This document shows positions 26,159 to 57,603 of a stretch of 64,000 nucleotides of DNA, piece after piece. The notes below the pieces were generated by a model. The model saw only the letters and a list, made by a program, of their open reading frames with translations. It did not search any database and was not told the DNA's origin. A program made the translations under genes and the position numbers. Position 1 is the first letter of the stretch. Each line of letters opens with the position of its first letter. Source of the DNA: Aureimonas altamirensis (GTDB lineage Bacteria > Pseudomonadota > Alphaproteobacteria > Rhizobiales > Rhizobiaceae); NCBI RefSeq assembly GCF_001463885.1, contig NZ_BBWQ01000005.1, positions 124,001 to 188,000 on the forward strand, read 5' to 3'.

Positions 26159-26217
26159 CATGCGGCGGGCTGCTTGGGTTTGGGCGCCGATCCTGAAATT
26201 CCGGAGACAATCCACGC

Positions 26218-33370: not shown

Positions 33371-34396
33371 TCACGCGCGGCGTGGAAGGTGCTGCACCAC
33401 GACGTTCGGCACGCGATACAGCCAGTCCAGGCCCACGCGTCTGGCGGTAACGTAGATCGCCATGGCGACCGCTATGGCCACCACCATCGTAAACGGAACA
33501 CCCCAGTAGCGCAGCAGCGGCACATGGATGGCATAGGCCGCCAGACCGGCCGCGAGAAGCGAGACGACGGGCGTATGCCCGACATAAATCGGCAACGAGT
33601 TGCGACCGAAATAGCCAAGCGTCTCCCGCACCGGCGCAAGCCGTGCGGCGTAGACCGCAACTGCGCTGGCCGTAGCCAAGGCCACCGCCGACAAAGCCGT
33701 GCGGCCTATGCCGAAGGCCATGCCATCCAGCGCCGGCAATGCCGCGAGCAACGCCGTAAAGAGACCGCCTCCGATCAGCAGCACCGGCAACGGCCTCTGG
33801 CCCAGCCATTCCACAGCTGGCGCCCCGAACCAGGCCCCGGCAAGAAAGAACGGCGCGTAGGCCAGCACATTGTGATGGGCGAAACTGGTAAGCGGCAGAA
33901 AGCCTGCAAAGGTTGCAACCGAGATGGCCGTAGCCCCGGCCAGGGCCGGCATGGCCCAGGGGCGCAGTGCCTTGGCGACAATCGCGTAAAGGGCCAGTGC
34001 CCAGATGAACCAAAGGCCGGAGCTGGGAACAAGCCAGGCCGTCAGCAGGTCGGCGTGGAGATCGCCCTCCTGCGGTGTCAGCGTGTTATCGATGGCGTAG
34101 CGATAGAAGTAGAAGCGGATCAGCGTCCAGAGCGCGAAGAGATACGCGAAAAGCAGAATGCGGCGCCGAAAGAGATCGCCCCAGCTCCGCCGAAACATGC
34201 CAGCCGCCAGAAAGCCCGAAATGCAGAAAAACAGCGGCATTCGTACCGGCTCCATCAGCGTGTTGAGCTGAACGAAGGCATAGGATGCCTGATCTTCAAG
34301 CCGCAGGTACATGGTGGAATGATACAGAACCACCAGCAGTATCGAACCGCCCTTCGCGACATCGAGCCAATCGATGCGTTCGGCATGATGAGCCAT
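33371..34396 (-). CDS. Acyltransferase family 3 membrane protein
   Basis: 341 residues from MAHHAERIDWLDVAKG, with GGAGGAAATCC just upstream. About ten hydrophobic spans and the opening IDWLDVAKGGSILLVVLYHSTMYL, in which the conserved His of the H(x)3-type motif lies, followed by MPLFFCISGFLAAGMFRR, identify an OafA/NolL-like acyltransferase. A late GRNSLPIYVGHTPVVSLLA segment is also typical. Such proteins O-acetylate surface glycans, glucans or antibiotics. It stands apart from other polysaccharide genes except the GT29-like gene next to it. Confidence 0.9.
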   Translation of the reverse strand: MAHHAERIDWLDVAKGGSILLVVLYHSTMYLRLEDQASYAFVQLNTLMEPVRMPLFFCISGFLAAGMFRRSWGDLFRRRILLFAYLFALWTLIRFYFYRYAIDNTLTPQEGDLHADLLTAWLVPSSGLWFIWALALYAIVAKALRPWAMPALAGATAISVATFAGFLPLTSFAHHNVLAYAPFFLAGAWFGAPAVEWLGQRPLPVLLIGGGLFTALLAALPALDGMAFGIGRTALSAVALATASAVAVYAARLAPVRETLGYFGRNSLPIYVGHTPVVSLLAAGLAAYAIHVPLLRYWGVPFTMVVAIAVAMAIYVTARRVGLDWLYRVPNVVVQHLPRRA

Positions 34397-34555
34397 GGAT
34401 TTCCTCCGTCCGAACCGCAGCGGCTGGATAAGAATGCACCATTGACTTATGATTGTGACAGAAACCTGCCGCAGTGCAATATGCCGCTTCGCGCGGGCGG
34501 TCTCCGACCTGCACACCCGGCGTTGCCGCTACGCTGAAGAGTTAAGCGCAATGGG

Positions 34556-35143
34556 CTATCGAAGGGGTTTTAGCTCCAGCGCGCCCCTGCGGTGCTGCTC
34601 CTGGAACCAGGAGCGTTCCGCCGACCAGGGATGCAGCGGCCATCCTGTAAAACCGAAACCATAGATGGCAATCGTCCAATCCGGATGGCGCCGTAGCAGA
34701 TCGAAGGCGACGAGATAGCCGGTGCTGGGACATATCGGATCGATGGCGCCGAACGCACGCAGCGCTTCACGAGCAGCATCGTGAATGTCCTCATCCAACG
34801 TCCGCGGCCGCAGGTCGAAGGGCGCCAGGGCCAGTGTCATTTCCTGCGTCCAGCACAGACCGGATGGCCCGTCCTGCAGGAGAGGGAACGGGAAGATGAC
34901 TTCGCTCGCACTGCGAAGCGCGGTCATACTGTCGAAACCGTTGTCCTTGACCCACTCCTGGGGCTGGCCGCCTCGATTCACAAGCGCAAGATGGGTCACC
35001 CGCTGGCCGGCCCACCGACCAAGGCCGGGAGCATTGTTGAATCGTACGACCATGTTGCAAGCATCGATTTCCGACGAGAGATCGGCCATGTCGGGCGCGT
35101 TTCCGACGATTGCAACGGTCATGGCGCAGTCTGTCACCGTCAT
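34556..35143 (-). CDS. GT29-like (sialyltransferase-type) glycosyltransferase
   Basis: About 195 residues from an ATG at 35143 (MTVTDCAMTVAIVGNAPD); the ATG 7 codons later is an alternative. The sequence follows the sialylmotif layout of family GT29: a first motif VAIVGNAPDMADLSSEIDACNMVVRFNNAPGLGRWAGQRVTHLALVNRGG and a second motif CPSTGYLVAFDLLRRHPDWTIAIYGFGFTGWPLHPWSAERSWFQEQH. Rhizobial homologues are often named urease operon accessory proteins without evidence of that role. The donor sugar is unknown, and true sialyl transfer should not be assumed. No signal or membrane span. Confidence 0.7.
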   Translation of the reverse strand: MTVTDCAMTVAIVGNAPDMADLSSEIDACNMVVRFNNAPGLGRWAGQRVTHLALVNRGGQPQEWVKDNGFDSMTALRSASEVIFPFPLLQDGPSGLCWTQEMTLALAPFDLRPRTLDEDIHDAAREALRAFGAIDPICPSTGYLVAFDLLRRHPDWTIAIYGFGFTGWPLHPWSAERSWFQEQHRRGALELKPLR

Positions 35144-35262
35144 ATCGGTATCCGCTTGGTGTCCATTGTCGGCAACGTCGCCCGGACGGTTCGGTTGCCC
35201 ATTGGGCGAAGGGATTTTCCAAGGACGCACACTTAAGTTCAGTTCCGGGGATTGCGCCGTTC

Positions 35263-35277
35263 GTTCGCTTTATGTTC
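35263..35277 (+). promoter_or_regulatory. LexA (SOS) box of dinB
   Basis: GTTCGCTTTATGTTC matches the alphaproteobacterial LexA consensus GTTC-N7-GTTC exactly. It lies 61-76 nt upstream of the dinB start, at a position suited to blocking its promoter. It could also affect the divergent GT29-like gene. Confidence 0.8.
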
Positions 35278-35338
35278 TAATTGGTCGAGCGCTGACGTGG
35301 CTGTGGCATGCGGCATCCAGGGTTGGGAATAAAGTGCG

Positions 35339-36487
35339 ATGGACCTCGGAAACGGGATGGTGGAGACAGTCTCGGATACCGTACCGGAGCAACAAAGCGC
35401 GCCGTCTGAACGCAAGATCATTCACATCGACATGGATGCGTTCTTCGCGTCCGTCGAGCAGCGGGACGACCCGTCCCTTCGGGGTAGGCCCGTAGCGGTG
35501 GGTGGCTCTCGCGAGCGCGGGGTCGTGGCTGCCGCAAGTTACGAAGCACGCGTCTACGGCGTCCGTTCGGCCATGCCTTCGGTGACTGCACGGCGGCGTT
35601 GCCCGGATCTGGTTTTCGTCAAGCCGAGGTTCGAGGTCTACAAGGCCGTATCCATGCAGATCAGGGCCATTTTCGCCGAGCAGACGGAATTGATAGAGCC
35701 GCTGTCACTCGACGAAGCCTATCTGGATGTCACGGACAGCCTTGCGGAAGACCAGACGGCAACCGCCGTTGCCGAAATCATTCGTCGGCGCATCCGGGAG
35801 GTTACGGGGCTGACGGCCTCGGCCGGCGTTTCCTACAACAAGTTTCTCGCCAAACTCGCTTCCGACCAGCGCAAGCCCGACGGGCTTTTCGTCATCCGCC
35901 CTTCGCAGGGCGCAGGCTACGTCGCTGCCTTGCCGGTCGGCCGGTTTCACGGGGTAGGGCCCGCCACCGCCGCACGCATGGAACGGTTGGGAATTCGTAC
36001 CGGCCTGGACCTGCGCGAACGCTCGGAGGCGGAGTTGGTCCGCCATTTCGGCAAGAGCGGGCCCTATTATTACAATATCGCACGCGGCATCGACCATCGG
36101 CCCGTGCGCGCAAACCGGATCCGCAAATCTATCGGCGCGGAAAGCACCTTCTCGCGCGATCTCTACACGCAGGAAGAGCTGCGCGAGGCGCTGGCACCTA
36201 TCGCGGAAAAAGTCTGGGCAGCTTGTGCCGCGCGCCAGATTCGGGGGCGCACGATGACGTTGAAGATTAAATATGCCGATTTTCATCAGATCACCCGTCG
36301 CAGCACGCTGGCCGTTCCGTTGCAGGACAGCGATGCGTTCCACAGCCTCGCCCTGCGCATGCTGGAGGAACGGCCACCCAGCGCGAAGGGTATCCGGCTT
36401 CTCGGCGTTTCCCTCTCAAGCCTGACCGATGGAGGCGAAGCCGCCGCGCCGCCGCAACTCGACCTGTTGGCCATGGTACCCGAATGA
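35339..36487 (+). CDS. dinB: DNA polymerase IV (Y-family translesion polymerase)
   Basis: 382 residues. The catalytic motifs are intact: IIHIDMDAFFASVEQRDDPSLRG (first acidic residues at about 31-33), PVAVGGSRERGVVAAASYEARVYGVRSAMP, and IEPLSLDEAYLDVTDS with the Asp-Glu pair. A GVSYNKFLAKLASDQRKPDG segment and helix-hairpin-helix region (FHGVGPATAARMERLGIRTGLDLRER) follow, then the little-finger domain (GRTMTLKIKYADFHQITRRST). The canonical beta-clamp peptide at the very end is not obvious (LDLLAMVPE), though QLDLLAM resembles it. An SOS box upstream implies LexA control. Confidence 0.95.
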   Translation: MDLGNGMVETVSDTVPEQQSAPSERKIIHIDMDAFFASVEQRDDPSLRGRPVAVGGSRERGVVAAASYEARVYGVRSAMPSVTARRRCPDLVFVKPRFEVYKAVSMQIRAIFAEQTELIEPLSLDEAYLDVTDSLAEDQTATAVAEIIRRRIREVTGLTASAGVSYNKFLAKLASDQRKPDGLFVIRPSQGAGYVAALPVGRFHGVGPATAARMERLGIRTGLDLRERSEAELVRHFGKSGPYYYNIARGIDHRPVRANRIRKSIGAESTFSRDLYTQEELREALAPIAEKVWAACAARQIRGRTMTLKIKYADFHQITRRSTLAVPLQDSDAFHSLALRMLEERPPSAKGIRLLGVSLSSLTDGGEAAAPPQLDLLAMVPE

Positions 36488-36572
36488 GTGGTTTTGGCCG
36501 TTATCCAATGGCGAGCCGTGGGCCCGAGCCTGTGAACGCTTTGGGTAAGGCGGCCGCCGGCCGGTCGTCGAT

Positions 36573-36923
36573 ATGGTGAAACGGACCGCAGAACCGACGA
36601 CGACGCCGGATGGCCGCTACATCGTCGTACGCGGGCGGCTCTGGCGCCGTGCGAACCCGCATCTGCCCGAAGACGAACGCAGCCGGCTGGTGCATCAACT
36701 GATGAGCGCCCGCCGGGCGGTTCGGTCCGCCTTGGCGACCGGTGACAGGCAAGCGGAAAAGGCCGCTCGCGCCGAGGTTCACCAAGCCAAAACGGGGCTG
36801 GGCGAACGCGGGCCGGTCTGGTGGGAGGATGGCGCGCCGGACCTGAACCGGCATCTTGTGCGCACGACACCCTATGCCGCCTGGTTCAAAGCGCTCGACG
36901 CGCCGCCGGAGGGCAAGGGTTGA
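36573..36923 (+). CDS. Conserved hypothetical protein downstream of dinB
   Basis: 116 residues, arginine-rich and helical. It starts MVKRTAEPTTTPDGRYIVVRGRLWRRANPHLPEDERSRLVHQLMSARRAV and ends in ERGPVWWEDGAPDLNRHLVRTTPYAAWFKAL. The pattern (a short beta strand, RGRLWRxxNP, a long helix, then WWxDGxPDxNR) is one I associate with uncharacterised alphaproteobacterial proteins. No motif suggests an activity. It follows dinB by 85 nt on the same strand and may be carried on its SOS-controlled transcript. Confidence 0.7.
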   Translation: MVKRTAEPTTTPDGRYIVVRGRLWRRANPHLPEDERSRLVHQLMSARRAVRSALATGDRQAEKAARAEVHQAKTGLGERGPVWWEDGAPDLNRHLVRTTPYAAWFKALDAPPEGKG

Positions 36924-37007
36924 ACAAGGCAGCCCAAGCGGTTTTCATCGACCGCCTTCGCATCGACTACACAGCCTGAGGTGCAATCTGTTTGACCTAA
37001 GTTCCTG

Positions 37008-37235
37008 CGTCCGAACTCAACCTGCCACGGCCCATGTGACCAGTAGGGGACATCAGTCGGCCGACCGCCATTGGGCGACGACATAATCCATCAGCGCGCG
37101 TAGCGTCACGAAATCCTTGGGTTCACCGGCCGGTGCGCCCTGCGTCCGGCTAGATCCACACCGATGGGAAAGCTTATGAAAAAGCTCACTGGCTGCGGAA
37201 CTTGCTCACGCACGGGCTGACAGCCGTTTTGGGAC
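37008..37235 (-). pseudogene. Decayed partial copy of the DUF1989 gene (left island flank)
   Basis: On the minus strand, three fragments in different frames spell the C-terminal third of the intact DUF1989 protein encoded at 42175-42789: VPQPVSFFISFPIGVDL (intact: VPQPLNLFMNIPIGADF), TQGAPAGEPKDFVTLRALMDYVV (intact: TQGAPAGAPGDFVTLRALMDCVV) and NGGRPTDVPYWSHG (intact: NGGRPTDVPVLVTR). About 40-50 nt present in the intact gene are missing near 37070. The similarity continues for a few bases past the stop codon and ends near 37008. Both copies have the same orientation, so they form an imperfect direct repeat around the island. Confidence 0.85.
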
Positions 37236-37535
37236 CAACTCCGGACTGTCCGCTTTTGCTTTTTTGCGAAACCGAGGCAGTCATCCGCCATGCCATTGTG
37301 CCAACGCTTCGTTAAGAGCAGAAACCTGCCGTAACCGCGTCATAGCGACATAGTCTTACCGCCTCCAGACAGCAACTATATAAAGCTGCCTAGCTAGGTT
37401 TTTCACCCTGCGCCAATTGTCACCAGGAGCATGAGCCGGAATCCAGATTCGTGATTGCGATCGACCATAATCCTCCGCACTATCTGCTCGAAGATTTCGC
37501 CTGCCCACTAAGCGGTTAGGCGCCGAGGGGAATGC
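37236..37535. other. Leader region of the reverse-transcriptase gene
   Basis: 300 nt with no gene, clearly more AT-rich than its surroundings. A TATATAA at 37377-37383 could be a -10 element, giving a leader of roughly 145 nt, and a CCTAGCTAGG palindrome follows at about 37389-37398. Several defence reverse transcriptases use a structured RNA encoded next to the gene, so a template RNA here is possible, but no convincing long hairpin is seen by eye. Confidence 0.4.
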
Positions 37536-40500
37536 ATGGAGCGCCTAAAACCGACACTTGAGGATGTCTCGCAAGAGTACGTCCTGATCCAGGCCTGGAA
37601 GAAGGCTTCGGCGTGGATCAGGTACCACAACTGGTTCTCGGATACGCTCGAGCTGGACTACGCCACCGCGAACCTGCCGAAGTTCCTGAGATCTATCGGC
37701 GACGAGCTGCGGACCGGGACATGGACTCCCCAGCCCCTTCGCCTTGTACCGGCACCCAAAAGCCAGAAGTGGTATGTGGCCAAGGATGGCATCTGGAAGC
37801 CTGATGATCCCCGGGAGGTGAACCTCCGGCCATTGGCCCACGTCAGTCTGCGTGACCAGGTCGCGGCCACCTCCCTTATGCTCTGCCTGGCGGATCGAGT
37901 AGAGACGCTGCAAGGTGACCCCCGCCCGTCTGAAGACAAGGAAAAAGCCTGGAGCGCCGTCATATCCTACGGCAACCGGCTCTTCTGCGATCCAGACGGG
38001 GTCGGCGGGCTACATCACCGTTGGGGTTCGTCCAAGCTCTACCGGTCTTTCTCGATCGACTATCGCAGCTTTATCGGTCGACCGGAGGAGATTGCCCGGG
38101 CGCTGGACGCCGAGGGGCGCCGAGTTGTTATTGTCACCTCAGACCTAAAGCAATTCTACGATCGGGTCCGTCCGGCGATGCTCATCGAGCAGCTGGATGG
38201 CATAAGGCGTGGAGAAGACGACCCAGACTTCTATTCGCTCGCGGCACAGGTACTGAGTTGGCGGTGGCACAAGCAGGATCTGGGAGAAGTCGACGAATAT
38301 GCCGAAAAGGGCATCAAAATTCCGGGCTTCAGAAAAATCTGTCTTCCTCAAGGTCTCGTTCCCGCGGGCTTCTTCGCAAACCTTGCTCTCCTAAACTTCG
38401 ATCGGCAATTGGCAGCTTGCAGGAAGACACCGATCTTCGCCGGCGCCACGCTTCGCGACACGTCGCGTTATGTCGATGATGTCCGGCTGGTTCTGACTGT
38501 CCCAAGAGAAATCTCCCTTAAAGAGATCAAGGACGCGACTTTTTCCTGGCTTCAGGATGTCCTGACCGAAACTTCTCCTGGCCTGCTGGTATCCCCCGAG
38601 AAGACCGAGGCGGTTGAATTTCGAGAGGGCAATCGGCCACTGCTTCGCCAGGGTCGAAAGATGGCCAGGATTCAGAGCGCTATCTCCGGGGGGTTCGATG
38701 CTGCCGGAGGTGAGGAAATCATCGACGCTGTGCAAAGCCTCGTTCGAGCTCAGGAGCACTATACCCAAAGCCGGAAAACCGCCAAAGAGCGATTGCTGCC
38801 GGTTCCCGACGTGCGCGACACCACGGTCGCCAGATTTTCGGCCGCGCGCTTCAGGAGCACTTTCAGGTCTCTCCGACCGCTTCTGGAAAACAGCCAGGCC
38901 GCAGAAACCGACGCAGATACGCTCGCGGACGAGACGGCCTTCCGCCGCGAAGGCATGACCCGTTCGGAGCTTGACGACGAAGCGCGCAACTTCGCATTCG
39001 CGCTTGTCCAACAATGGATGGACGATCCATCGAATGTGCGCCTTCTCAGGATCGGGCTGGATATATGGCCGTCCCCGCACGTCCTGAAGCAGGTTCTAGA
39101 ACTGCTGCGCCCCTACCTTAAACGTACGCAAGGCCAGCCGCGGCTCGTTGCCTTGTATTGCCTTTCGGAACTCTTCAAGGCCGGCGCGACGGAAACTGGC
39201 TTCGTCGAGGATGACGAGTACCTCCCGAGTGCTGTCGACGTCAACGAATACCGGGCAATACTGGCGGACGAGGCCATCCTGGTGGTTTCGACCGCCACCC
39301 CAACGACCCCCTGGTACCTCCGGCAGCAGGCCCTGCTGATGTTGGCGGTGACCCGGTCCCGAATAGCGACCCAGTTCGACGATCGGCTTCGGATGCCGGA
39401 AACGCAGCTTTATCTGGAATTTCTCTCGTTCCTGAACCGGGATCGGGAGCCATCGAGCTACGATGATTTTGCTATTCTCGCGGTGATGGCACGGCGCTCA
39501 GTGCTCGACGAAAACGATGCGCGCCAATTGCTGGTCGGTAGCATTGACAGGGGTATTTTAGAGAGTATCGCCATGCGCGACCCGGCATTCGCGGCGGAAC
39601 TCCGCCCGGCCTGGATTTTGGAAGCACCGGAAGGATCTCCGTCGGATGGTTGGGTACCCCTAGTACACTCGCTTTCGTCCCGACGCTTGGACAGGATCGA
39701 CCTTCGTAACGAGATCGGCGTCCTCAGTTTTATGCACGCATTCGCGGCGATGATGCTGAAGGAGGATCTGCCCGAGATCATCCCGCCGTCTATCATCGAG
39801 ATGAGGGTATCGGACGACCCCCGACATCCGGAGGTAATGGAGCTTCGGATCGCTACGGAGGCCAACGAGGCCGAAGGCTTCCTGCAGGTGCTTTATCAAC
39901 CGCCTAGCTGGTGTGAAGCGAGCCTTCGCTGGAAATTCCAGATGGGTTACCTCGCCAGGTTTATCCTGACCGGGAACCTTGATTTCACGGAAGTCCGCAC
40001 AACGTCCTGGCGAGAGACCAGAACGATCTATCGTCAGGTCAGGAGCCACTGGTTCCAACGTTCCTATGGCCTCCATAATGGGCATGAAGGTTTCGGTGAC
40101 GACTGGCTGGCAATCTCTCAGACGACGGAGGATCTGCTTTATTCGATGCTGGCATGGCCCGGCTGCAGGATCGAAGACGGTGAGTGGTTAAAATACAACC
40201 ACCGTCAACTTTTACTATTCATGCGTGACAAGCTGAGAACGGCCAAGCTGCAGGTAGGGGACGCCACCGGCACATTGATGTTACCTATACTGGCGCCGCT
40301 GCTGACACATCCACATGGAGATCGTCCGCTGCGCGGTTGCGTCATACAGACCATCACGCCCGAGCCGCACGAAATTACAGAGACGGATCTAACGCTTTCC
40401 GCGCCCGCGATCAGGAAGAAGCATCGCAATCATCTTTCCACGGCATTAGCGGCGGTCAAAAAGATGCTGGATCTGCGGGCGACACACCATAAGCATGAAA

Positions 40501-41237
40501 AGCGACTGGACTGGCTGATCCTTCCGGAGCTCGCCGTCCACCCAAAAGACATCAAGACCCACCTGATCCGGTTCGCCCGAGACTACAAGACTATTATCCT
40601 GGCTGGCCTCGCCTATGAGGTGGTGGAGCCGGGCAAGGCGCCGGTCAATTCCGCGCTGTGGATACTGCCGCAGCTGGTTGCTGGCCGTGGCCTGCAGGTC
40701 AAGACGAGACGCCAGGGAAAGCATCATCTCGCGAGGATGGAAAAGGACTGGGAAGACAAAAAGCTGATCCGCGGCTTTCGACCGGTCCAGTGGCTGGTCG
40801 GCTACAACTGGGCCGTGAATCCAGCTGCCGATCCGCTTTGGCTTACCTCTGCCGTCTGCTACGATGCGACCGATCTTAGGCTCGCGTCGGACCTCAGGGA
40901 CCGATCGGACGTATTCGCCATCCCGGCCCTAAATCAGGATATCGGTACTTTCGACCAGATGGTCGCGGCGTTGCATTACCACATGTACCAAATGGTGATC
41001 GTAGCGAACAACGGCAGCTTCGGCGGCAGCAGCGCGCATGTGCCGTTCAAGGAAACCCATTTCAAACAAGTTTTCCATAGCCACGGGCAGCCACAGGCCT
41101 CAATTTCATTTTTCGAGATCGAGGACATCCCGGCAATGAAGGATCGCTTGAACCAGGCAACAAAGGTAGTATCTGCATCGCCCGTCAAGATTAAGGGCAC
41201 TTGGAAATATCCGCCTGCCGGAATAGACGTACCCTAA
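37536..41237 (+). CDS. Defence-associated reverse transcriptase with C-terminal nitrilase domain (DRT type 1 / UG1-like)
   Basis: 1,233 residues. The N-terminal third is a reverse transcriptase: VTSDLKQFYDR with Asp 203, LPQGLVPAGFFANLALL with Gln 272, the YVDD catalytic box at 312-315, and GLLVSPEKTEAV after it. A long helical middle (about 400-950) has no motif I recognise. The end is nitrilase-like: LILPELAVHPKD with Glu 998, a lysine pair at 1075-1076, and LTSAVCYDATD with Cys 1108, the expected Glu-Lys-Cys triad, then FAIPALNQDIGTFDQMVAALHYHMYQMVIVANNGSFGGS. The fusion is the published architecture of DRT type 1 anti-phage systems. Base composition is lower in GC than its neighbours, supporting transfer. 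A start 6 nt after GAGGGG is well placed. Confidence 0.88.
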   Translation: MERLKPTLEDVSQEYVLIQAWKKASAWIRYHNWFSDTLELDYATANLPKFLRSIGDELRTGTWTPQPLRLVPAPKSQKWYVAKDGIWKPDDPREVNLRPLAHVSLRDQVAATSLMLCLADRVETLQGDPRPSEDKEKAWSAVISYGNRLFCDPDGVGGLHHRWGSSKLYRSFSIDYRSFIGRPEEIARALDAEGRRVVIVTSDLKQFYDRVRPAMLIEQLDGIRRGEDDPDFYSLAAQVLSWRWHKQDLGEVDEYAEKGIKIPGFRKICLPQGLVPAGFFANLALLNFDRQLAACRKTPIFAGATLRDTSRYVDDVRLVLTVPREISLKEIKDATFSWLQDVLTETSPGLLVSPEKTEAVEFREGNRPLLRQGRKMARIQSAISGGFDAAGGEEIIDAVQSLVRAQEHYTQSRKTAKERLLPVPDVRDTTVARFSAARFRSTFRSLRPLLENSQAAETDADTLADETAFRREGMTRSELDDEARNFAFALVQQWMDDPSNVRLLRIGLDIWPSPHVLKQVLELLRPYLKRTQGQPRLVALYCLSELFKAGATETGFVEDDEYLPSAVDVNEYRAILADEAILVVSTATPTTPWYLRQQALLMLAVTRSRIATQFDDRLRMPETQLYLEFLSFLNRDREPSSYDDFAILAVMARRSVLDENDARQLLVGSIDRGILESIAMRDPAFAAELRPAWILEAPEGSPSDGWVPLVHSLSSRRLDRIDLRNEIGVLSFMHAFAAMMLKEDLPEIIPPSIIEMRVSDDPRHPEVMELRIATEANEAEGFLQVLYQPPSWCEASLRWKFQMGYLARFILTGNLDFTEVRTTSWRETRTIYRQVRSHWFQRSYGLHNGHEGFGDDWLAISQTTEDLLYSMLAWPGCRIEDGEWLKYNHRQLLLFMRDKLRTAKLQVGDATGTLMLPILAPLLTHPHGDRPLRGCVIQTITPEPHEITETDLTLSAPAIRKKHRNHLSTALAAVKKMLDLRATHHKHEKRLDWLILPELAVHPKDIKTHLIRFARDYKTIILAGLAYEVVEPGKAPVNSALWILPQLVAGRGLQVKTRRQGKHHLARMEKDWEDKKLIRGFRPVQWLVGYNWAVNPAADPLWLTSAVCYDATDLRLASDLRDRSDVFAIPALNQDIGTFDQMVAALHYHMYQMVIVANNGSFGGSSAHVPFKETHFKQVFHSHGQPQASISFFEIEDIPAMKDRLNQATKVVSASPVKIKGTWKYPPAGIDVP

Positions 41238-41361
41238 TACTTGATTGACCTAAATGGCCTCTCGGATGACCCTAACTGCATCACCTACGGCTCAGTTATA
41301 CCGATGGCCGACCGCCCTTACCTTTCGAAGAACGCCCTCGACCTGCATGGCCGTTATCCGA

Positions 41362-41880
41362 TCACGTGCGGTCTCGAAAGTTTAGGATCGATGCTCGCAC
41401 ATACTGGGGGATGTTGAGGTACGCGGACCACGCTGACTTCCCGAGGCGGCCTCGGAGTTTCACCTCGCTGGTCAGCGGATTTTCAGCCGGGTTTCCGCAA
41501 TCTGGCACAATATGCATTGCATGGATTATCTTGTTGCATGCCTGATCAAAAGTCAGCGGGATCTCTTGGCCGCCATTCAGGATGTCTGGCTGGAGCGAGC
41601 CGCACCGCAAGGTAATAGGCTGGTGCATCGACTCTGCGGGATCGTTTCGCAGCAGGCTCATATGTTCTGCTTGAACGCGATTGGCGACCGCTGTGCCAAC
41701 CAACAAATGAATAATCTCGTCGGCGAAATGATCGTCGCGCATCAGTCTGAGTGGATCATCCGCCGCGGGCGCCAGTTCAAAAAGCTGCTGGTCTCCGCTG
41801 AACACCAAAAACAGTCGGTAAACATCCCGGATGGCAATTGATGCATTCAGCTCGAAGTTCTTGTGGCCATAAGCAACCAA
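41362..41880 (-). CDS. Hypothetical protein in the reverse-transcriptase island
   Basis: About 172 residues, converging on the reverse-transcriptase gene with 124 nt between stops. The frame starts at a TTG (41880) with GGGAAA upstream; no ATG lies before the part that looks like folded protein (YGHKNFELNASIAIRDVYRLFLVFSGDQQLFEL), so the true start is uncertain. A PLTFDQACNKIIHAMHI segment near residue 105 resembles a motif I have seen in uncharacterised island proteins. There is no signal peptide or span. Coding is supported by length and amino-acid composition; the function is unknown and it may or may not act with the reverse transcriptase. Confidence 0.55.
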   Translation of the reverse strand: MVAYGHKNFELNASIAIRDVYRLFLVFSGDQQLFELAPAADDPLRLMRDDHFADEIIHLLVGTAVANRVQAEHMSLLRNDPAESMHQPITLRCGSLQPDILNGGQEIPLTFDQACNKIIHAMHIVPDCGNPAENPLTSEVKLRGRLGKSAWSAYLNIPQYVRASILNFRDRT

Positions 41881-42174
41881 GATTAGGTTTCCCGTCGTTT
41901 TCCGCCGATATTGCCGACTTGCCCGTGCAGGGGGAGTCTCCGCTTTTAGCTTCCGGAAATGGAATGGTGAACGGCCGAAAATGGCGACGCGAAGCAGCCA
42001 TTGCGTCCCGAGTTAGGCATCAGCAGGTGTAGGTTGTAACCTCAGCATGCAGAAGCGGCGCCCGCGTGTCACATCCGGCAAATAAGAGCCGGATGTGATG
42101 ACAGCGTTGTGCCATTCGGCACTCAAACCTCTAAGATAATGCCGCAGAGTCTCGTAGGGGATGCGCGTCCGAAC
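41881..42174. other. Right part of the island, non-coding
   Basis: 294 nt with no gene I can support. It should hold the promoter of the 172-residue gene at its left end. The inverted repeat at 42069-42098 and the right copy of the flanking repeat (from about 42163) are at its right end. Confidence 0.4.
42069..42098. repeat. Perfect 11-bp inverted repeat
   Basis: TCACATCCGGC and its exact complement GCCGGATGTGA are separated by an 8-nt A-rich loop. There is no T-run, so it is not a standard terminator for the DUF1989 operon, which is read toward it, although it could protect that message's 3' end. Its place near the right edge of the island also makes it a possible recombination or protein-binding site. 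Confidence 0.6.
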
Positions 42175-42789
42175 TCAATCGGTTGCAGCCCGTGTCACGA
42201 GTACGGGGACATCCGTCGGCCGACCGCCATTGATGGGCGTTATGTCCTGCGGACACGACGACAATGCCACCACACAATCCATCAGCGCGCGCAGCGTCAC
42301 GAAATCTCCGGGCGCGCCGGCCGGTGCGCCCTGCGTCAGGCTGAAATCCGCGCCGATGGGAATGTTCATGAAAAGGTTCAGCGGCTGCGGCACCCGCGCA
42401 AGCGTGAAGCCTGCCGCATCCATGGCCTGCCGCAGATTGTCGGCGCAGCTTCGATGCGGCTCCGTGCAGCCAAGGTTGACATAACGCTGCGCATCGCAGG
42501 CCGCCATGATCGTGTCGTGGATACCGGGCGACTTGTCGGTGACGACCGCCAGTATGGGAATGCGGCGGTCGGTGACATAGACGCCGCCGGGCAGGGCGCT
42601 GAGGCGGCTGTTCTCGACGCGGCTGTGCTCCATCGACATGGCATGCGCCGGCTCTTCGGCGCTGAAGGCCCAGGTGTCGACCACCTGCGTGCCGCTTTCG
42701 TTGACGATGGTGATCTCGTCACCCGTCGACAGGCGGATGGCCAGGCCGTGGCCGGCCGGTACGGTGAACCGTTCGGGTGTGTTCGTCAT
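42175..42789 (-). CDS. Urea carboxylase-associated family protein (DUF1989)
   Basis: 204 residues from MTNTPERFTVPAG. The family pattern is complete: VPAGHGLAIRLSTGDEITIVNESGTQVVDTWAFS, MSMEHSRVENSRLSALPGGVYVTDRRIPILAVVTD, HDTIMAACDAQRY, CADNLRQAMDAAG, PQPLNLFMNIPIGADFSL and DFVTLRALMDCVVALSSCPQDITPINGG. The cysteine in ALMDCVVALSSCPQD and histidine residues are probable metal ligands. Relatives accompany urea or guanidine carboxylases and some act as carboxyguanidine deiminase subunits; here there is one protein and no carboxylase. It is last in the operon and overlaps the ureohydrolase by 4 nt. A decayed copy lies 5 kb away at 37008-37235. Confidence 0.88.
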   Translation of the reverse strand: MTNTPERFTVPAGHGLAIRLSTGDEITIVNESGTQVVDTWAFSAEEPAHAMSMEHSRVENSRLSALPGGVYVTDRRIPILAVVTDKSPGIHDTIMAACDAQRYVNLGCTEPHRSCADNLRQAMDAAGFTLARVPQPLNLFMNIPIGADFSLTQGAPAGAPGDFVTLRALMDCVVALSSCPQDITPINGGRPTDVPVLVTRAATD

Positions 42790-43760
42790 GCCGGCACCGC
42801 CATGGCCCGGTCGCGCTGTTCGGCCCACCAGGGCTGGTTGCAGATGAAGCCGAGGAAGCCCGTAACGACGAGCGCCCCCAGATAGGATGTCGCCCCGGTG
42901 CCGACATCGAGCGGCGGGTTAACCTCCACAAAGTCGAAGCCGCGAATGCGATGCCGCGCCGCGATGGCCTTGAGGCTGTCCATCAATTGCGGAAAGGTGA
43001 GGCCGTCCGGCTCTGCCGAGACGCAGCCGGGCACGAGCGACATGTCCAGCGCATCGACGTCGATGGTCACGTAGACATCCGAACCTTCGGGAAGAAGCGC
43101 GGCGATGCCCTCGGCCCCAAGGCGGCGCGTCTCGCTCATGCAGACGACCCGGTTGCCCATGGCGCGCAGCTCTTCCACATGCGTGCGTGTGGTGCGCAGC
43201 CCGCGAATGCCGATCTGGGTCAGCGACAGGCAGGTATCCATGCCGGTGATGTGCCGGAAGGCATGGCTGTTGGTGCGGTCGAGATCCTCGTCGATCTCGG
43301 CAAAATCCTGGTGCGCGTCGAACTGTATGACGTGCATCGGCGTGTCGAAGGCCTCGAAGATCGGATAGGTGATCGAATGATCGCCGCCCAGCATCACCGG
43401 AAACAGGCCGGCATCCAGCATCTCGCGTACGCGGGCGGTGATCAGCTCGAAGGTGCGGCCGGGATTGGCCGGGCGAATGTCCACATCGCCGCAATCGACG
43501 ATCAGCCCGCCTGTCAGCTCGGTGCCCAGATATTCCTCTCCCGTATCGGGATCGTAGAGCGGGTCGCCATAGGGAAACCGCAGCGAATGCTCGCGGATGG
43601 CGCGCGGCCCCATGCGCGAGCCCGGCAGAAAGGGCGAGCCCTCGTCGAAGGGAATGCCGAGAATGCCGATCGCGGCACCGGCGTAATCGGCAGGCGTGGT
43701 CGCGATGCGCGACCGCAGATAGCTGGGTATGCCGGTATAGGCCCGGTTGACGGTTTTCAT
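42786..43760 (-). CDS. Agmatinase/ureohydrolase family protein, first
   Basis: 324 residues from MKTVNRAYTGIPSYL. Members hydrolyse a guanidino group to urea with a binuclear Mn centre. The ligands are present in GGDHSITY, DAHQDFAEIDED and TIDVDALDMS, and the end GFDFVEVNPPLD has the usual Glu. The insertion SHAFRHITGM is family-normal. It could act on agmatine, guanidinobutyrate, guanidinopropionate or guanidine, which cannot be told apart here. It lies between the DUF1989 gene (4-nt overlap) and the importer ATPase (4-nt overlap), so supply and hydrolysis are coupled. Confidence 0.9.
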   Translation of the reverse strand: MKTVNRAYTGIPSYLRSRIATTPADYAGAAIGILGIPFDEGSPFLPGSRMGPRAIREHSLRFPYGDPLYDPDTGEEYLGTELTGGLIVDCGDVDIRPANPGRTFELITARVREMLDAGLFPVMLGGDHSITYPIFEAFDTPMHVIQFDAHQDFAEIDEDLDRTNSHAFRHITGMDTCLSLTQIGIRGLRTTRTHVEELRAMGNRVVCMSETRRLGAEGIAALLPEGSDVYVTIDVDALDMSLVPGCVSAEPDGLTFPQLMDSLKAIAARHRIRGFDFVEVNPPLDVGTGATSYLGALVVTGFLGFICNQPWWAEQRDRAMAVPA

Positions 43761-44575
43761 GATGCGGCTCCTGAAGAGGCGGGGGTATGGCGGAACTGGG
43801 GGTGGAAGGCGCAAACCTTGTCGAAAAAGTCGGCCACGCGCTCATTGTCGCGCGCCTGGATGATCGTGCGCGGGTCGCCGTCGGCGATGATGCGGCCGCG
43901 ATCCATGAACAGAAGGCGCGATGCGATATCGCGCGCAAAGCCCAGCTCATGCGTGACGACCAGCATGGTCATGCCGGCTTGCGCGAATTCGCGCAGCAAC
44001 TGCAAAACTTCGCCGACAAGCTCGGGGTCGAGCGCCGAGGTCGGCTCGTCGAACAGCATGATCTCTGGCCCCATGGCCAGCGCCCGCGCTATGGCGACGC
44101 GCTGCTTCTGCCCGCCGGAAAGGGCGCTGGGCTTACGGTCGGCAAGCGGCGTGATGCGAAGCCTGTCGAACAGGCGTCGGGCCTCTGCCTCCGCTTCGGC
44201 GCGGTTGCGCCCGGCCACCACCATCTGCGGGCGCACCACGTTTTCCATTGCGCTCAGATGCGGCCAGAGGTTGAGCTGCTGGTAAACCATGCCGATGCGC
44301 GGGCGTATGCGGTCGATCTCGCGCGCGGTCTGTCGGCGCACCACGCCCTGCGGGTTCAACTCGCGGCCCAGAAAGCTGCCGCCCACTTCCACGAAGCCGT
44401 CATCGGGCGGATCGAGCCACAGAAGCGTGCGCAGAAGGGTGGATTTGCCGCAGCCGGACGGGCCGACAAGGCTGACGACCTGTCCGCGCGGAATGTCGAA
44501 ATAGACGCTGTCCAGCGCCACGACATCGCCGAAGCGCCGCGTCAGATTGGTGGCGCGCAGGGCAGGGGCCGTCAT
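43757..44575 (-). CDS. Polar amino-acid ABC transporter ATPase of the ureohydrolase operon
   Basis: 272 residues from MTAPALRATNLTRRFGD. Walker A GPSGCGKST, Q-loop GMVYQQLNLWPHLSAMENV, signature [16 protein letters not shown], Walker B IMLFDEPTSALDPE and switch LVVTHELGFA are all intact. It has a short insertion after Walker A (VEVGGSFLGRELNPQGVVRRQTAREIDRIRP) and a C-terminal tail past the usual end. It starts inside the last codons of the second permease. It powers the importer that precedes it and is overlapped by the first ureohydrolase. Confidence 0.92.
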   Translation of the reverse strand: MTAPALRATNLTRRFGDVVALDSVYFDIPRGQVVSLVGPSGCGKSTLLRTLLWLDPPDDGFVEVGGSFLGRELNPQGVVRRQTAREIDRIRPRIGMVYQQLNLWPHLSAMENVVRPQMVVAGRNRAEAEAEARRLFDRLRITPLADRKPSALSGGQKQRVAIARALAMGPEIMLFDEPTSALDPELVGEVLQLLREFAQAGMTMLVVTHELGFARDIASRLLFMDRGRIIADGDPRTIIQARDNERVADFFDKVCAFHPQFRHTPASSGAAS

Positions 44576-45291
44576 CGCGCCGTCCTCCCTTCCAGGATAA
44601 GGTAGCGCGCCACGAGCGGCGACAGGGTGCGGTTGCCGCGCCCGGCATTGAGGCGGCGCTCCAGAAGGCCGGCCAAAAAGCCGAAAAGGCCGGTGATCAG
44701 CCAGTAGAATATCGCCACCGCGATGAACACTTCGAACGGGGCGAAGGTGTTGCCCTGCACGACGAGGCCCTGGAACGTCAGCTCCGCCACGGTGATCGAC
44801 GACAGGACCGAGCTTTCCTTGATCATCGTCATGGTGCAGTTGACGACCGGGGGCACCATCGGCGCCAGCACCTGCGGCACCACGATATTGCGCGCCGCGG
44901 CAAAGGGCGACATGCCGATGGCGCGTGCCGATTCCCACTGGCCGCGCGGCAGCGACAGAACGCAGGCGCGGATGATCTCCGTGTAGTAGGCCCCCGCGAA
45001 GAGCGACAAGGCGACCGTGCCGTTGAACAAGGCCGGGCTCCGCACGCCTGCCGCTGGCAGGCCATATTGCGTCAGGAACACCAGCACGATGAAGGGTATG
45101 CCGCGCATGATCGTCACATAGGCGGCCACCAGCCAGCGCAGCGGCGCGATGGATGACAGGGCAGCGATGGCGGCCAGCGTGCCGATGGTCATGCCGGCAA
45201 GGAAGGCGATGAACGTTATTCTGAGCGTCAGCCATGCGCCTTGAGCGAACAGCGGCAGATTGTCGACGAGAATGGAAAGGTCGAGGCCCAT
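44572..45291 (-). CDS. Polar amino-acid ABC transporter permease, second (ureohydrolase operon)
   Basis: 239 residues from MGLDLSILVDNLPLFAQGAWLTLRITFIAFLAG. A HisM/GlnP-type permease with YVTIMRGIPFIVLVFLTQYGLP and docking loop ESARAIGMSPFAAARNIVVPQVLAPMVPP. Its ATG is at the last base of the partner's stop codon (TGATG overlap). The frame is open far upstream but that part is antiframe of the partner permease. Confidence 0.9.
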   Translation of the reverse strand: MGLDLSILVDNLPLFAQGAWLTLRITFIAFLAGMTIGTLAAIAALSSIAPLRWLVAAYVTIMRGIPFIVLVFLTQYGLPAAGVRSPALFNGTVALSLFAGAYYTEIIRACVLSLPRGQWESARAIGMSPFAAARNIVVPQVLAPMVPPVVNCTMTMIKESSVLSSITVAELTFQGLVVQGNTFAPFEVFIAVAIFYWLITGLFGFLAGLLERRLNAGRGNRTLSPLVARYLILEGRTAR

Positions 45292-45953
45292 CAGCGGCGC
45301 TCCTTTGCGAAGCGGCGTTCCAGAAGCCAGCCGACGAAGGCGAGCGTCAGGTTGATGGCAAGGAACATGAGCGCCGCCGCGACGATGGGCTCGAACGGGC
45401 GAAACCGCGCGGCGCCGATCTGCTGGGCGACGCGCAATGCCTCCACCACCGTGATGACGGCCAGAAGGGCCGTTCCCTTGACGATGACGGTGCCCTCGTT
45501 GACCAGCATCGGCGAGATGCGGCGAAGCAGTTGCGGCAGGATGATCTGCGCCCAGATGACCGGCCGCGACAGGCCAAGCGCGGTCGATGCCTCGACCTGG
45601 CCGGAGTCGATCTCGGGAAGCGAGCCGCGCATGATTTCGGAAATGAAGAAGCTGGAGTTCAGCGCGATGGCGGCGATGCCCGCAACCTCCGGCGCAAGGC
45701 GAAAGCCGGTTGCAGCCGGCAGGCCGTAATAGACCAGGAAAATCTGGATCAGGATGGGCGTGCCGCGGATGAACGACAGAAGCACCGCAATGACCATGTT
45801 GACGGGCCGGATCTTCAACGATCGGACGATGGTCAGGAGGGTGCCGCCCACAAGCGCCAGCGCAAGGGCGATGGCCGCAATGCGCAGGTTGACCAGCGCC
45901 GCCTCGCCGACGCGCGGCATGGCGGCGAACACCAGATCGATGTTGAAATTCAT
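45291..45953 (-). CDS. Polar amino-acid ABC transporter permease, first (ureohydrolase operon)
   Basis: 220 residues from MNFNIDLVFAAMPRVGEAALVNLRIAAIALALALVGG. It has the family's SFIRGTPILIQIFLVYYGLP and EASTALGLSRPVIWAQIILPQLLRRISPML docking loop. With its partner it forms the membrane channel. A strong hairpin separates it from the binding-protein gene. Confidence 0.9.
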   Translation of the reverse strand: MNFNIDLVFAAMPRVGEAALVNLRIAAIALALALVGGTLLTIVRSLKIRPVNMVIAVLLSFIRGTPILIQIFLVYYGLPAATGFRLAPEVAGIAAIALNSSFFISEIMRGSLPEIDSGQVEASTALGLSRPVIWAQIILPQLLRRISPMLVNEGTVIVKGTALLAVITVVEALRVAQQIGAARFRPFEPIVAAALMFLAINLTLAFVGWLLERRFAKERR

Positions 45954-45976
45954 GAAAGGCGACCCTTGCCGAAAGG

Positions 45977-45999
45977 CGAGGCCCCAGGGCGGGGCCTCG
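45977..45999 (-). terminator. Hairpin after binding-protein gene (ureohydrolase operon)
   Basis: A 9-bp G/C stem (45977-45985 with 45991-45999) with a 5-nt loop lies between the binding-protein stop and the permease start, without a T-run. It is the third such structure in this window at the same place in an importer operon. Confidence 0.5.
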
Positions 46000-46012
46000 A
46001 CGTATCGCGATG

Positions 46013-46867
46013 TCAGAGAGCGTCGGGCGGCAGGTAGCCTTCGTCCGGGATTTCCATGCGGAAGCCGAACCATTTGTCCTGAAGCTCGTAGAGGCGGCCG
46101 TCGTCGCGCATCTTGTAGATGACCTGCGAGATGAAATCGCGCAGGTCCGCATCCTCGGGCCGGGTCACCCACGCCTGGTAGGTCCATTGCACGCCGGTTT
46201 CGATAGGCGCGCCCACCTCGAACGTATCGGGATGCTCTTTCACCAGGACGGCGATGGAGGGCAGGGACTGGATCACCGCATCGATTTCGCCGGAGGCAAG
46301 CGCCGTGTAGCAATCGGTGTAGGCCGTATACAGCTTCAGCTCCGCGAAGCCTTCGCCGGCGCCCTTCAGCCGCTCGTCCAGTGCCCGCGCGATGGGCTCG
46401 GCAGAGGATGCGAGCTGCGTGCCGACAATCTTTCCGGCCAGCCCGTCTTCGGTTTCGGTGGCTTCGCCCTTGCGCACCAGCACGTAAGGCTGGCCGTTGG
46501 CGATGGGCGCCGTGTAGGCGTATTTCTTGGCGCGCTCCTCGTTGATGGACACGGTGGTGGCCACGAAATCGAAATTGCCTGCCAGAAGGCCCGGCAGGAT
46601 ACCCTGCCACGGCAGGTCGAGCTGGTTCAGCTTGACGCCGAGCTCCTGCACGACGACGTCGAGGATATCCTTGCCGTAGCCGACGATCTGGCCGCTTTCG
46701 TCGACAAATTCGAATGGCGGAAAGGCCGCCTCCGTGCCGACGGTCACCGTGCCTGCGGCGCGGATCTTGTCGAGCGTGCCGCCGGCGGCAAAGCCGGCCA
46801 TGGGGAAGGCGAGGACGAGTCCTGTCGCACCGATCAACAGGCCGAGCTGGCGTCTGGTCATGTTCAT
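46013..46867 (-). CDS. Polar amino-acid / guanidino-compound ABC transporter binding protein
   Basis: 284 residues with a signal peptide (MNMTRRQLGLLIGATGLVLAFPMAGFA) that includes TRRQLGLLI and might go by Tat. The mature family 3 binding domain reads GTVTVGTEAAFPPFEFVDESGQIVGYGKDILDVVVQELGV, GLLAGNFDFVATTVSINEERAKKYAYTAPI, and lobe two with YTDCYTALASGEIDAVIQSLPS. The acidic ligand pocket implies a cationic substrate, consistent with an arginine- or agmatine-like compound, but that is inferred from the neighbouring ureohydrolases. Confidence 0.9.
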   Translation of the reverse strand: MNMTRRQLGLLIGATGLVLAFPMAGFAAGGTLDKIRAAGTVTVGTEAAFPPFEFVDESGQIVGYGKDILDVVVQELGVKLNQLDLPWQGILPGLLAGNFDFVATTVSINEERAKKYAYTAPIANGQPYVLVRKGEATETEDGLAGKIVGTQLASSAEPIARALDERLKGAGEGFAELKLYTAYTDCYTALASGEIDAVIQSLPSIAVLVKEHPDTFEVGAPIETGVQWTYQAWVTRPEDADLRDFISQVIYKMRDDGRLYELQDKWFGFRMEIPDEGYLPPDAL

Positions 46868-46904
46868 GCGCTTATGCTCCTGGCTCAGGGGATGGAAAAC
46901 CGGT

Positions 46905-47873
46905 TCAACGGTCGAAATATCCGGCGCGGACGGCCGCGCCGATCAGGTTCACCGCAAGGCGGCCGGCAACGATCGAGGTGATGTTGTTGACGTCGCGCGC
47001 GGGGGTGATCTCGACGATATCCATGCCGACGACGCGCCCCTTGCCGACAAGGCCGTGGATGAGGCGGCGGCATTGATGGAAGGTCAGTCCGCCGGGCGCG
47101 GGGCCTTCGACGCCCGGCGCCTCGGAAGGGTCGAGGCCGTCGGCATCGATGGTGATGTAATAGCGCCCGCCGGCCGGAATGCGCGCCAGGACGGCGTCGA
47201 TGCCGCCATCATGCACCTCGAAAGCCGGGATGATCTGCGCCCCGTAGGCCATGGCCGCTTCGTACTCTTCCGGCCGGCCGCTGCCCTGGGCGCGAATGCC
47301 GATCTGGAAGATCTCACCGATATGCGCCATTTCCGATGCCCTGCGGATCGGGCTGGAGAGGCCGTCGTGAACGCCGTTCACGTCGTTGCGCCAATCGATA
47401 TGGGCGTCGATCTGCACGAGGGTGATCGGGTCTCCGCCAAGTTCCGACAGCGCGCGGAAGATGGGAATGGGAATACCATGGTCGCCGCCGAAGGTGATGG
47501 GCATCGCCCCCGCCTTCAGGATCTTGCGCACGGCCTCTTCGGCCCGCGCGAAATGCCCGCCGCCCGGCACTTCCAGGTCGTATGGCACGTTGCCGACATC
47601 CACCGCGCGCACCGGACGGTTGTCGTAGATCGGGCCGCCGACATCGAAATCATGCCGCTCGAGTGAGCGCGAGACACGATCCGTCATGCGACGGATGGTG
47701 TCGGGCGCGTTGATCTGGTCGTTGCTGAGCGCATCAGGCGTATAGGCGCTGCCGTGGGGAATGCCGAGAAAGGCGATGTCGGCCGCAAGGGAATCGAGGT
47801 CCGTATCCACGGTCGAGTACAGGAAACTGCCGTAGGACGTGGCAGCAGGAACCGTCAGGGGCATGGTCGTCAT
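46905..47873 (-). CDS. Agmatinase/ureohydrolase family protein, second
   Basis: 322 residues from MTTMPLTVPAATSYGSF. The metal-site motifs are GGDHGIPIPI, DAHIDWRNDVNGV and TIDADGLDPSEAPGV, ending in GMDIVEITPARD. The AHIDWRN form (Trp after DAHID) and the loss of the Ser in GGDHS distinguish it from the other ureohydrolase in this operon, so the two probably prefer different guanidino substrates. It is the first gene of the operon, next to the long dyad and the divergent LysR gene. Confidence 0.9.
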   Translation of the reverse strand: MTTMPLTVPAATSYGSFLYSTVDTDLDSLAADIAFLGIPHGSAYTPDALSNDQINAPDTIRRMTDRVSRSLERHDFDVGGPIYDNRPVRAVDVGNVPYDLEVPGGGHFARAEEAVRKILKAGAMPITFGGDHGIPIPIFRALSELGGDPITLVQIDAHIDWRNDVNGVHDGLSSPIRRASEMAHIGEIFQIGIRAQGSGRPEEYEAAMAYGAQIIPAFEVHDGGIDAVLARIPAGGRYYITIDADGLDPSEAPGVEGPAPGGLTFHQCRRLIHGLVGKGRVVGMDIVEITPARDVNNITSIVAGRLAVNLIGAAVRAGYFDR

Positions 47874-47939
47874 TTGGCTTCTCTTCGGGCAGGCGCTGAA
47901 ACGAACGGTCATGCCGGCATTGCGGTGGACCGCGGTCAT

Positions 47940-47971
47940 GATTAAGAAATAACCAGACCTATTTTTTAATC
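47940..47971. promoter_or_regulatory. Long AT-rich dyad, probable LysR-type operator
   Basis: GATTAAGAAATA (47940-47951) and TATTTTTTAATC (47960-47971) are complementary at 11 of 12 positions around an 8-nt centre. Such a dyad is striking in this GC-rich DNA. It lies 67 nt upstream of the second ureohydrolase and about 90 nt upstream of the divergent LysR gene, the usual place for the regulator's recognition site. Confidence 0.65.
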
Positions 47972-48060
47972 TTTCATGGGGCGCAGTCGGTGAGAAGGAC
48001 GAGTTTCGAGCCGCGGTTGCAAAATCCGCAACCATGCGATGCGGAGCGAGGTGCGGGCCG

Positions 48061-49035: not shown

Positions 49036-49127
49036 GCCTCAGTTTGTTTGGCGCGATGTCTGGATGGTTTCGTGTGCGGTTTCATGGGCGGCGGCATGCG
49101 CTGCACCGCTCAAGGTTCTGCAAAATA

Positions 49128-49202
49128 TGGTGGGCGCGACAGGGATCGAACCTGTGACCCCCTCGGTGTGAACGAGGTGCTCTCCCGCTGAGCTACGCGC
49201 CC
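49128..49202 (-). tRNA. tRNA-Val (anticodon CAC)
   Basis: The minus-strand sequence folds into a full cloverleaf: a 7-bp acceptor stem (GGGCGCG / CGCGCCC) with encoded CCA end, D arm GCTCAGCGGGAGAGC, anticodon stem CCTCG/CGAGG with loop TTCACAC, and T arm ACAGG-TTCGATC-CCTGT. The anticodon CAC reads GUG, valine. Confidence 0.97.
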
Positions 49203-49267
49203 GATGCAGCGTCCCGGTGTGTCCGGCTGCGAAGGTGCGCCGATATAGTCGGGCCGGGCCTGTCCCG

Positions 49268-49981: not shown

Positions 49982-50139
49982 AGCGGCATCAAACCTGCCT
50001 GTGCCGCGGCGTCAAGCGGAGGCAGGGCAAAGGGACGGCTTCCGCGCCTGCGGCAAACGCATTAAACGGGGCTGATTGCAGCTTGTGGCCAGCACGGGGA
50101 TTCGCCGCGCCGGCGGTACCCTATACGAAGGACTGCGAA

Positions 50140-50835: not shown

Positions 50836-50931
50836 GGTCTCGGCGGTCCATCGGTCGCAAGGGGCTTCCCCGGCTCCGATTTATTCATTAGTGAGCAGTC
50901 AGCTCATGTTCGAATCCATGGAGATGGAACT

Positions 50932-51462: not shown

Positions 51463-51547
51463 GCCCTTCGCCGTCTCCGGCCTTTCGGTGGCGCGTGCAT
51501 GGCGCGCCCCCTTCACGCTACCAGTCCCCGCAAATTGAGGGCGCCCG

Positions 51548-53574: not shown

Positions 53575-53659
53575 CACGGCCTTTTTGCCGTGACAATTCA
53601 GACCATTGGTGTTTAAACAGCCAGCTTGATGCGTAAAGCTTCCGCAGGAGAATGGGGCA

Positions 53660-55042: not shown

Positions 55043-55069
55043 CAGGCGGCGCCTCTGACGATCGACTAC

Positions 55070-55780: not shown

Positions 55781-55861
55781 TCAAGGTATGCGCCACCTTG
55801 CTCCACCGCGCGTGGATGCTTAAGCATCTATCGTCACGGTAGACAAGGAGCCAGTTTCGCA

Positions 55862-57589: not shown

Positions 57590-57603
57590 ACAATAGGGGG
57601 GTG

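Follow-up and report, generated by a model that had tools for sequence, protein, structure and literature searches.

Reverse transcriptases (RTs) of the UG1 class, which carry a fused nitrilase and are also called defense-associated reverse transcriptase 1 (DRT1), were reportedly first described by Gao 2020 and Mestre 2022. The class is already in print as an RT with a fused nitrilase (PMC8934634), and the mechanism has been worked out for one member, seen by electron cryomicroscopy in structure 9yfd (Neville et al., 2026; PMC13275509). We have analyzed a gene predicted to belong to this class in Aureimonas altamirensis, lying at positions 37536–41237 (+) of a stretch of 64,000 nucleotides that we call the window (contig NZ_BBWQ01000005.1, positions 124,001 to 188,000, assembly GCF_001463885.1).

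Here and below, statements on the studied DRT1 are taken from its published account (PMC13275509). The enzyme copies no template; it makes semirandom DNA primed on its own Ser402, the first nucleotide being joined to this serine within the sequence GTSS, on a priming loop that is disordered in the solved structure. The DNA-bearing protein forms tetramers that stack into dormant filaments, with a C-terminal lid closing the nitrilase. Both active sites are needed, and defense is by abortive infection. Phage T4 escapes by mutations in dda, and T4 Dda is required. The authors describe nitrilases as having no precedent in anti-phage defense. The first-pass annotation of the window had left open what such an enzyme copies and what its nitrilase cleaves. 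For the homologue the first question is answered by template-free DNA synthesis.

We propose that the window protein is very probably an anti-phage protein of the DRT1 type (UG1, class 3 UG/Abi) that stands alone and works as follows. The RT domain would add deoxynucleotides to its own Ser384, with neither a template nor an RNA partner. The short covalent DNA would drive the formation of tetramers and their stacking into filaments, and tetramer formation would ready the C-terminal nitrilase (E998, K1062, E1069 and C1108), which the C-terminal lid of a neighboring chain (K1224...A1228) would hold shut. Phage replication enzymes would lift this block, and the freed nitrilase would attack an essential metabolite, so that the infected cell is sacrificed. 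We infer this mechanism by analogy with a homologue of about 28% identity. The proposal is preferred because a Drt1a profile spans the whole chain, 9yfd_A is the sole sequence match in the PDB at E ≤ 0.001, the catalytic residues, S384 and the lid residues are kept, a structural model has both RT and nitrilase fold matches, the searches around the gene gave no sign of an RNA partner, and the presence of the gene is patchy.

Family identity and predicted fold

The gene is a single open reading frame (ORF) from ATG to stop, encoding RT, helical region and nitrilase in one chain of 1,233 amino acids, exactly as first annotated. Its top profile match is the Drt1a model of PADLOC (PDLC03745), which covers residues 3–1230 (1240 bits, E = 0); another Drt1a model, PDLC02171, reached 419.6 bits. 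Generic RT models of PADLOC scored 35–36 bits. The sole Pfam match is RVT_1 at residues 184–360, with 29.5 bits just below the cut-off of 29.6. The NCBIfam model of group II intron RT/maturase reached 34.2 bits, its cut-off being 300, and the retron RT models also fell below theirs (retron_St85_RT, 18 bits against 235). A CARF-nitrilase model of PADLOC matched weakly (E = 0.0011). In the PDB, 9yfd_A, entitled 'Defense-associated reverse transcriptase 1', alone matched the sequence at E ≤ 0.001 (E = 8.9e-115), the match spanning residues 4–608 and 806–1210. The assignment to UG1, or DRT type 1, with an RT fused to a nitrilase had been made without database searches, and the profile search agrees with it, the top match being Drt1a rather than a group II intron or retron RT. 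As judged from its sequence, the gene is real and intact and is a DRT1 (UG1) RT-nitrilase, a known family.

An AlphaFold2 model was calculated for residues 34–1233 with 50 homologues, giving a mean predicted local distance difference test score (pLDDT) of 86.3 and a predicted template modeling score (pTM) of 0.87. Three regions may be distinguished, with approximate boundaries. The RT domain (about residues 1–370; 37536–38645, +) is placed by the RVT_1 stretch, by identity to the relative L126 introduced below and by RT folds found with Foldseek. A mostly helical middle region follows (about residues 371–888; 38646–40199, +), which the model shows as nearly all helix between about residues 372 and 742 and as mixed beyond. 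The nitrilase-superfamily domain (about residues 889–1233; 40200–41234, +) is matched by the PADLOC model RTasNitrilase (E = 3.6e-63, residues 769–1231) and by amidases found with Foldseek. The earlier statement that the middle has no recognized domain holds for Pfam, which matches RVT_1 only, but the model is mostly helical there, and an alpha-helical repeat domain has been named in the solved DRT1 (PMC13275509).

The Foldseek matches agree with the annotated fusion. They comprise RTs (group II, DRT2, AbiK, DRT9 and retrons) and, separately, nitrilase-superfamily amidases, each match covering part of the chain, with query TM-scores of 0.13–0.23 among the 50 matches shown. The top E-values belong to group II intron RTs and DRT2. 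Together with the RVT_1 match, this could point to a templated RT (retron-like, DRT2-like or derived from group II introns) that copies a nearby non-coding RNA. However, the generic RT models, at 34–36 bits, are far below Drt1a, and the ranking was made in a library that runs to 8 April 2026 and so probably lacks 9yfd, which is absent among the 50 matches shown. The flanks of the gene, considered below, bear further on this point.

Relatives, active sites and the C-terminal lid

We examined the conservation of individual residues in an alignment of 88 rows. Besides the window protein it comprises 78 of the 82 loci found in scans of genome and viral contigs, and nine others; two pairs are identical, leaving 86 different rows. 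Scanning genome contigs with the single protein as query returned no relatives, and with the alignment as query the best 80 of 184 relatives were kept. L096, L102, L107 and L122 were omitted as having no suitable ORF of 900 amino acids, L036–L039 and L041 as partial, and L003, whose contig is as long as that of L047, as probably the same record. In L041, on a Sphingopyxis plasmid (6001–9931), the DRT1 frame stops after 797 residues and a transposase gene of the IS256 family (ISSpma2) lies just beyond.

In a midpoint-rooted FastTree tree of the 88 rows, 27 group with L126 and 61 with the window protein. Both deep branches have a support of 93, so that the precise point of division is not firmly fixed, and L098 has a long branch. 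L126 is a close relative of 9yfd (whole-length match, 2349.5 bits) and has the same stretch GTSSIPERNG. The window protein is 28.3% identical to L126, with 34.8% in the RT part (356 columns) and 34.5% in the nitrilase part. Its sister in the tree, with local support 100, is L045, from a metagenome-assembled genome of the Hyphomicrobiales (contig JAIYDI010000046.1).

All the RT motifs that had been pointed out are in place. The first catalytic aspartate, D203 (38142–38144, +), is D in 87 of 88 rows with one gap, as are Q272 and G273 of the QG motif, and the active-site YVDD at residues 312–315 (38469–38480, +) is present in every row. In the studied DRT1, the change D324N/D325N in YVDD leads to loss of defense (PMC13275509).

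The predicted DNA-priming serine is S384 (38685–38687, +), which is serine in all 88 rows and is aligned with the first of the two serines of GTSS in L126, the counterpart of S402 in 9yfd. Between residues 360 and 470 it is the only column conserved as S, T or Y in 88/88 rows, the next best being residue 430 (85/88) and residue 373 (79/88, with G in the window protein). In this alignment the window protein lacks two residues that the priming loop of 9yfd has ahead of the serine. The equivalence of S384 and S402 is a prediction from the 88-row alignment and from conservation, and it depends on where this two-residue gap is placed.

In the nitrilase domain, E998 (40527–40529, +), the catalytic glutamate, is conserved in 88/88 rows. 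The catalytic lysine K1062 (40719–40721, +), in the motif QGK, and the nucleophile C1108 (40857–40859, +), whose counterpart in 9yfd is, by alignment, the cysteine of CYDATD, are each conserved in 87 of 88. The same is true of E1069 (40740–40742, +), which from general knowledge of nitrilases we take to be the second glutamate of the tetrad. The single gap at these last three positions is L084, a row with an interrupted frame. In the secondary-structure string of the model, E998 falls close to where a strand ends (model positions 960–968), K1062 is just past a strand (1019–1028) and C1108 sits between a strand and a helix. Of the catalytic triad first suggested, Glu998 and Cys1108 are borne out. 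The lysine had been sought at 1075–1076, and this was mistaken; these positions are K in only 5/88 and 4/88 rows (with 44 and 43 gaps), and the conserved lysine is K1062. In the studied DRT1, the cysteine change C1116A abolished defense (PMC13275509).

The C-terminal lid motif K1224-Y-P-P-A1228 (41205–41219, +) is also well conserved in its end residues. K1224 is lysine in 84/88 rows (four gaps), and A1228 is alanine in 84/88 (two gaps, one S and one G). They correspond to K1219 and A1223 of 9yfd, both of which are required for defense in the studied protein (PMC13275509).

We also considered that the gene might be a relic, decayed or no longer functional, within an insertion richer in AT. It is flanked by the decayed end of a DUF1989 gene and by unrecognized sequence (see below), as might be expected for such a relic. 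Yet its 1,233 codons are open, its catalytic, priming-loop and lid residues are intact, and the GC content at the three codon positions (0.63/0.43/0.68) is that of coding sequence, so that decay seems most improbable.

Partners, distribution and genomic surroundings

Some DRT1 genes are accompanied by a second, adjacent gene, drt1b, which encodes a small transmembrane protein. The right flank of the window gene (41238–42164, GC 0.548) has no recognized gene or drt1b. Its two overlapping ORFs, 41362–41880 (−) and 41512–41841 (+), have no match in Pfam (E ≤ 0.01) or PADLOC (E ≤ 0.01), and the DNA of 41240–42164 has no match in 60 other genomes. Since drt1b accompanies only about 18% of drt1 genes (PMC13275509), its lack does not exclude a DRT1. 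Drt1b was recognized by profile beside L042, L043, L044, L125 and L126, all in the branch of L126. In the window's branch, where the longest ORF downstream of each gene was inspected, none was recognized; some of its loci end near the gene, and the profile scan of these ORFs covered L086 and L108 only. Downstream ORFs with a predicted membrane segment, in L086, L108 and L111, were considered as Drt1b and rejected, that of L108 matching PDC-S42. In the Paenibacillus relative L111, the gene that follows drt1 (4316–5206) matches Thoeris ThsA models (E = 1.5e-40).

A non-coding RNA partner was also sought and set aside. Rfam gave no match at E ≤ 1 within 34000–44000, and only one tRNA in six related loci. 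Among ten loci, similarity between the upstream flanks lies within or no more than about 40 nucleotides from the start of the open frame, with the exception of a 44-nucleotide stretch further upstream that is common to L046 and L049. No similarity was found between their downstream flanks (blastn E ≤ 1e-3, plus strand). The flanks therefore show no conservation that points to an RNA, and a templated RT with such a partner appears very unlikely here.

The distribution of the gene is patchy. The window protein was absent from all 60 other genomes in the genus, family and order samples. At E ≤ 0.001 the profile matched 49 of 385 genomes of the class sample, only three near full length including the window's own genome; the other rows listed were short matches within profile positions 175–384, and 3 of 14 named control genomes matched at the same threshold. 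In the phylum sample 8 of 398 genomes matched at E ≤ 1e-30, again counting its own, five of them near full length in one match, and none of the 14 control genomes did so. Seven of 72,556 plasmid records matched at E ≤ 1e-5, one of these covering only 8% of the query, and no match was found among 50,697 phage records.

As had been noted, the GC content of the gene is lower than that of its neighbors, being 0.579 compared with 0.642 (10633–37000) and 0.649 (42165–49120). An imperfect direct repeat (76–96% identity) brackets drt1, its copies at 37007–37211 and 42165–42403 lying about 5.2 kb apart. The right copy represents the 3′ end of a DUF1989 gene (42175–42828), and the left one, in the left flank of drt1, is a decayed version of that end. 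On a larger scale, positions 1–10632 and 49124–60142 of the window are colinear with a sister genome (G005) at about 89–92% identity. The intervening 10633–49123 (about 38.5 kb) is largely replaced there, with only three short matches of 60–369 bases and 73–80% identity. The low GC content and the replaced region fit with acquired DNA in a variable region.

The right edge of the variable region is the 3′ end of tRNA-Val(CAC) at 49128–49202, and in G005 this tRNA end recurs as a 50-base copy (L156, 13355–13404) about 2.3 kb from the tRNA. Because the replaced region ends there and this copy is present, tRNA-Val looks like an integration hotspot. In a further genome (G012) the block from DUF1989 to LysR (42197–49035) is found at L145 3301–10136 with 88% identity, on a contig other than that of the tRNA-Val site. 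In a search for a mobile element carrying drt1, no left copy of the tRNA end was found and no integrase was recognized among the window genes checked; with part of the genes annotated, no element was delimited. Elsewhere in the variable region, 22916–27222 encodes a TRCF/UvrB-like DEAD helicase of 1080 amino acids and, adjoining it, a UvdE-type UV endonuclease; the Cas3 matches of the helicase in PADLOC look like generic helicase similarity.

Annotated relatives adjoin genes of Qat (L043), a viperin gene (L042) and type I-F CRISPR genes (L044), all of them in the other branch. For the window's branch we examined 87 neighboring ORFs in 23 loci, which matched 132 PADLOC families at E ≤ 1e-10; the 25 of these shown include models of pAgo, Mokosh and DISARM type. 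As a control we took 87 of 102 rule-chosen ORFs from the same genus, which lie near dinB, DUF1989 or tRNA-Val sites and are not neutral. They matched 45 families, with GajA and GajB in two members each. Since the control is not clean, this positive neighbor test lends weak support to a defense-island setting for the window's branch. The control GajA and GajB (Gabija) are probably adjacent pairs in L147 and L148 (genomes G009 and G004) at about 187–3685; these sit about 5 kb from dinB-like sequence, at the left end of the loci.

Two branches of DRT1 and known systems

Several observations weigh against a DRT1 acting in the published way. The identity to L126 is only about 28%, falling to 19.0% in the middle region (468 columns). 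In a 13-row alignment and in a pairwise alignment the two-residue gap falls after the serine, which puts S384 two columns before S402. The neighboring genes of the window that were checked included no recognized defense genes, and no promoter-like site was found in 36900–37700, where 0.2 would be expected by chance. Lastly, the pair R1210/Y1215, which ties the C termini together in 9yfd, is not conserved. In the branch of 9yfd its columns hold R in 3/27 and Y in 3/27 rows, and in the window's branch R in 5/61 and Y in 0/61, both residues being absent from the window protein; the tail is gappy, so that these columns are less sure than those of the lid.

The tail also has a feature specific to the window's branch. 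The residue directly before the lid lysine, W1223 in the window protein, is aromatic in 54/61 rows (W in 45, F in 8 and Y in 1, with four gaps) and in none of the 27 rows of the other branch. In view of this aromatic and of the poor conservation of R1210/Y1215, the filament or tail lock may differ from that of 9yfd, as far as the aligned residues indicate. It is conceivable, though we think it unlikely, that the window protein is a DRT1 under different control, its lid being worked by other contacts and perhaps without the entwined filament of 9yfd. The separate branch, in which no drt1b was recognized, the non-conserved pseudoknot contact residues and the branch-specific aromatic would agree with this. 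Against it, the residues at which changes in the homologue removed or greatly weakened defense (the priming serine, the RT aspartates, the nitrilase cysteine and the lid lysine and alanine) are kept in both branches, and in the homologue changes of non-conserved tail residues had at most a 10-fold effect (PMC13275509). A tentative extension, to which we give similarly little credence, is that the whole 61-row branch, drawn from many phyla, is a distinct and purely solo DRT1 that retains the priming serine and the lid but in which dormancy is locked by other contacts, such as W1223, and control of the nitrilase differs.

We retain a stand-alone DRT1 using the published scheme as the most probable reading for the window protein, which belongs to the main branch other than that of the one DRT1 with a worked-out mechanism. 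As an intact and apparently partner-free member of the branch that is larger in this sample, it allows the question of which features are essential to be tested independently. One would expect the core common to the two branches (S384, the E-K-E-C tetrad and the lid lysine with its PA) to matter in each of them, and the non-conserved tail contacts not to.

How does the protein compare with known systems? Its sister L045 is 57–58% identical to it, and has a resolvase/recombinase gene on its right. The PADLOC Drt1a family (PDLC03745) matches over the full length with no defining difference; six other near full-length genome matches score 1275–1380 bits against the 1240 of the window protein, and five of these six belong to the branch of L126. 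The UG5 RTs with a nitrilase (RT_UG5-nitrilase, PDLC03780) have the combination of RT and nitrilase in common with it, but that model gives only 110.2 bits, and the better of its two stretches is the nitrilase part, at residues 981–1189. The DRT1 of 9yfd (PMC13275509) shares the order RT-helical-nitrilase in one chain, YVDD, the serine of the priming loop, the nitrilase residues E/K/E/C and a C-terminal K..PA lid. It differs in its sequence, with about 28% identity as measured through L126, in its position in the other main branch and in its tail contacts.

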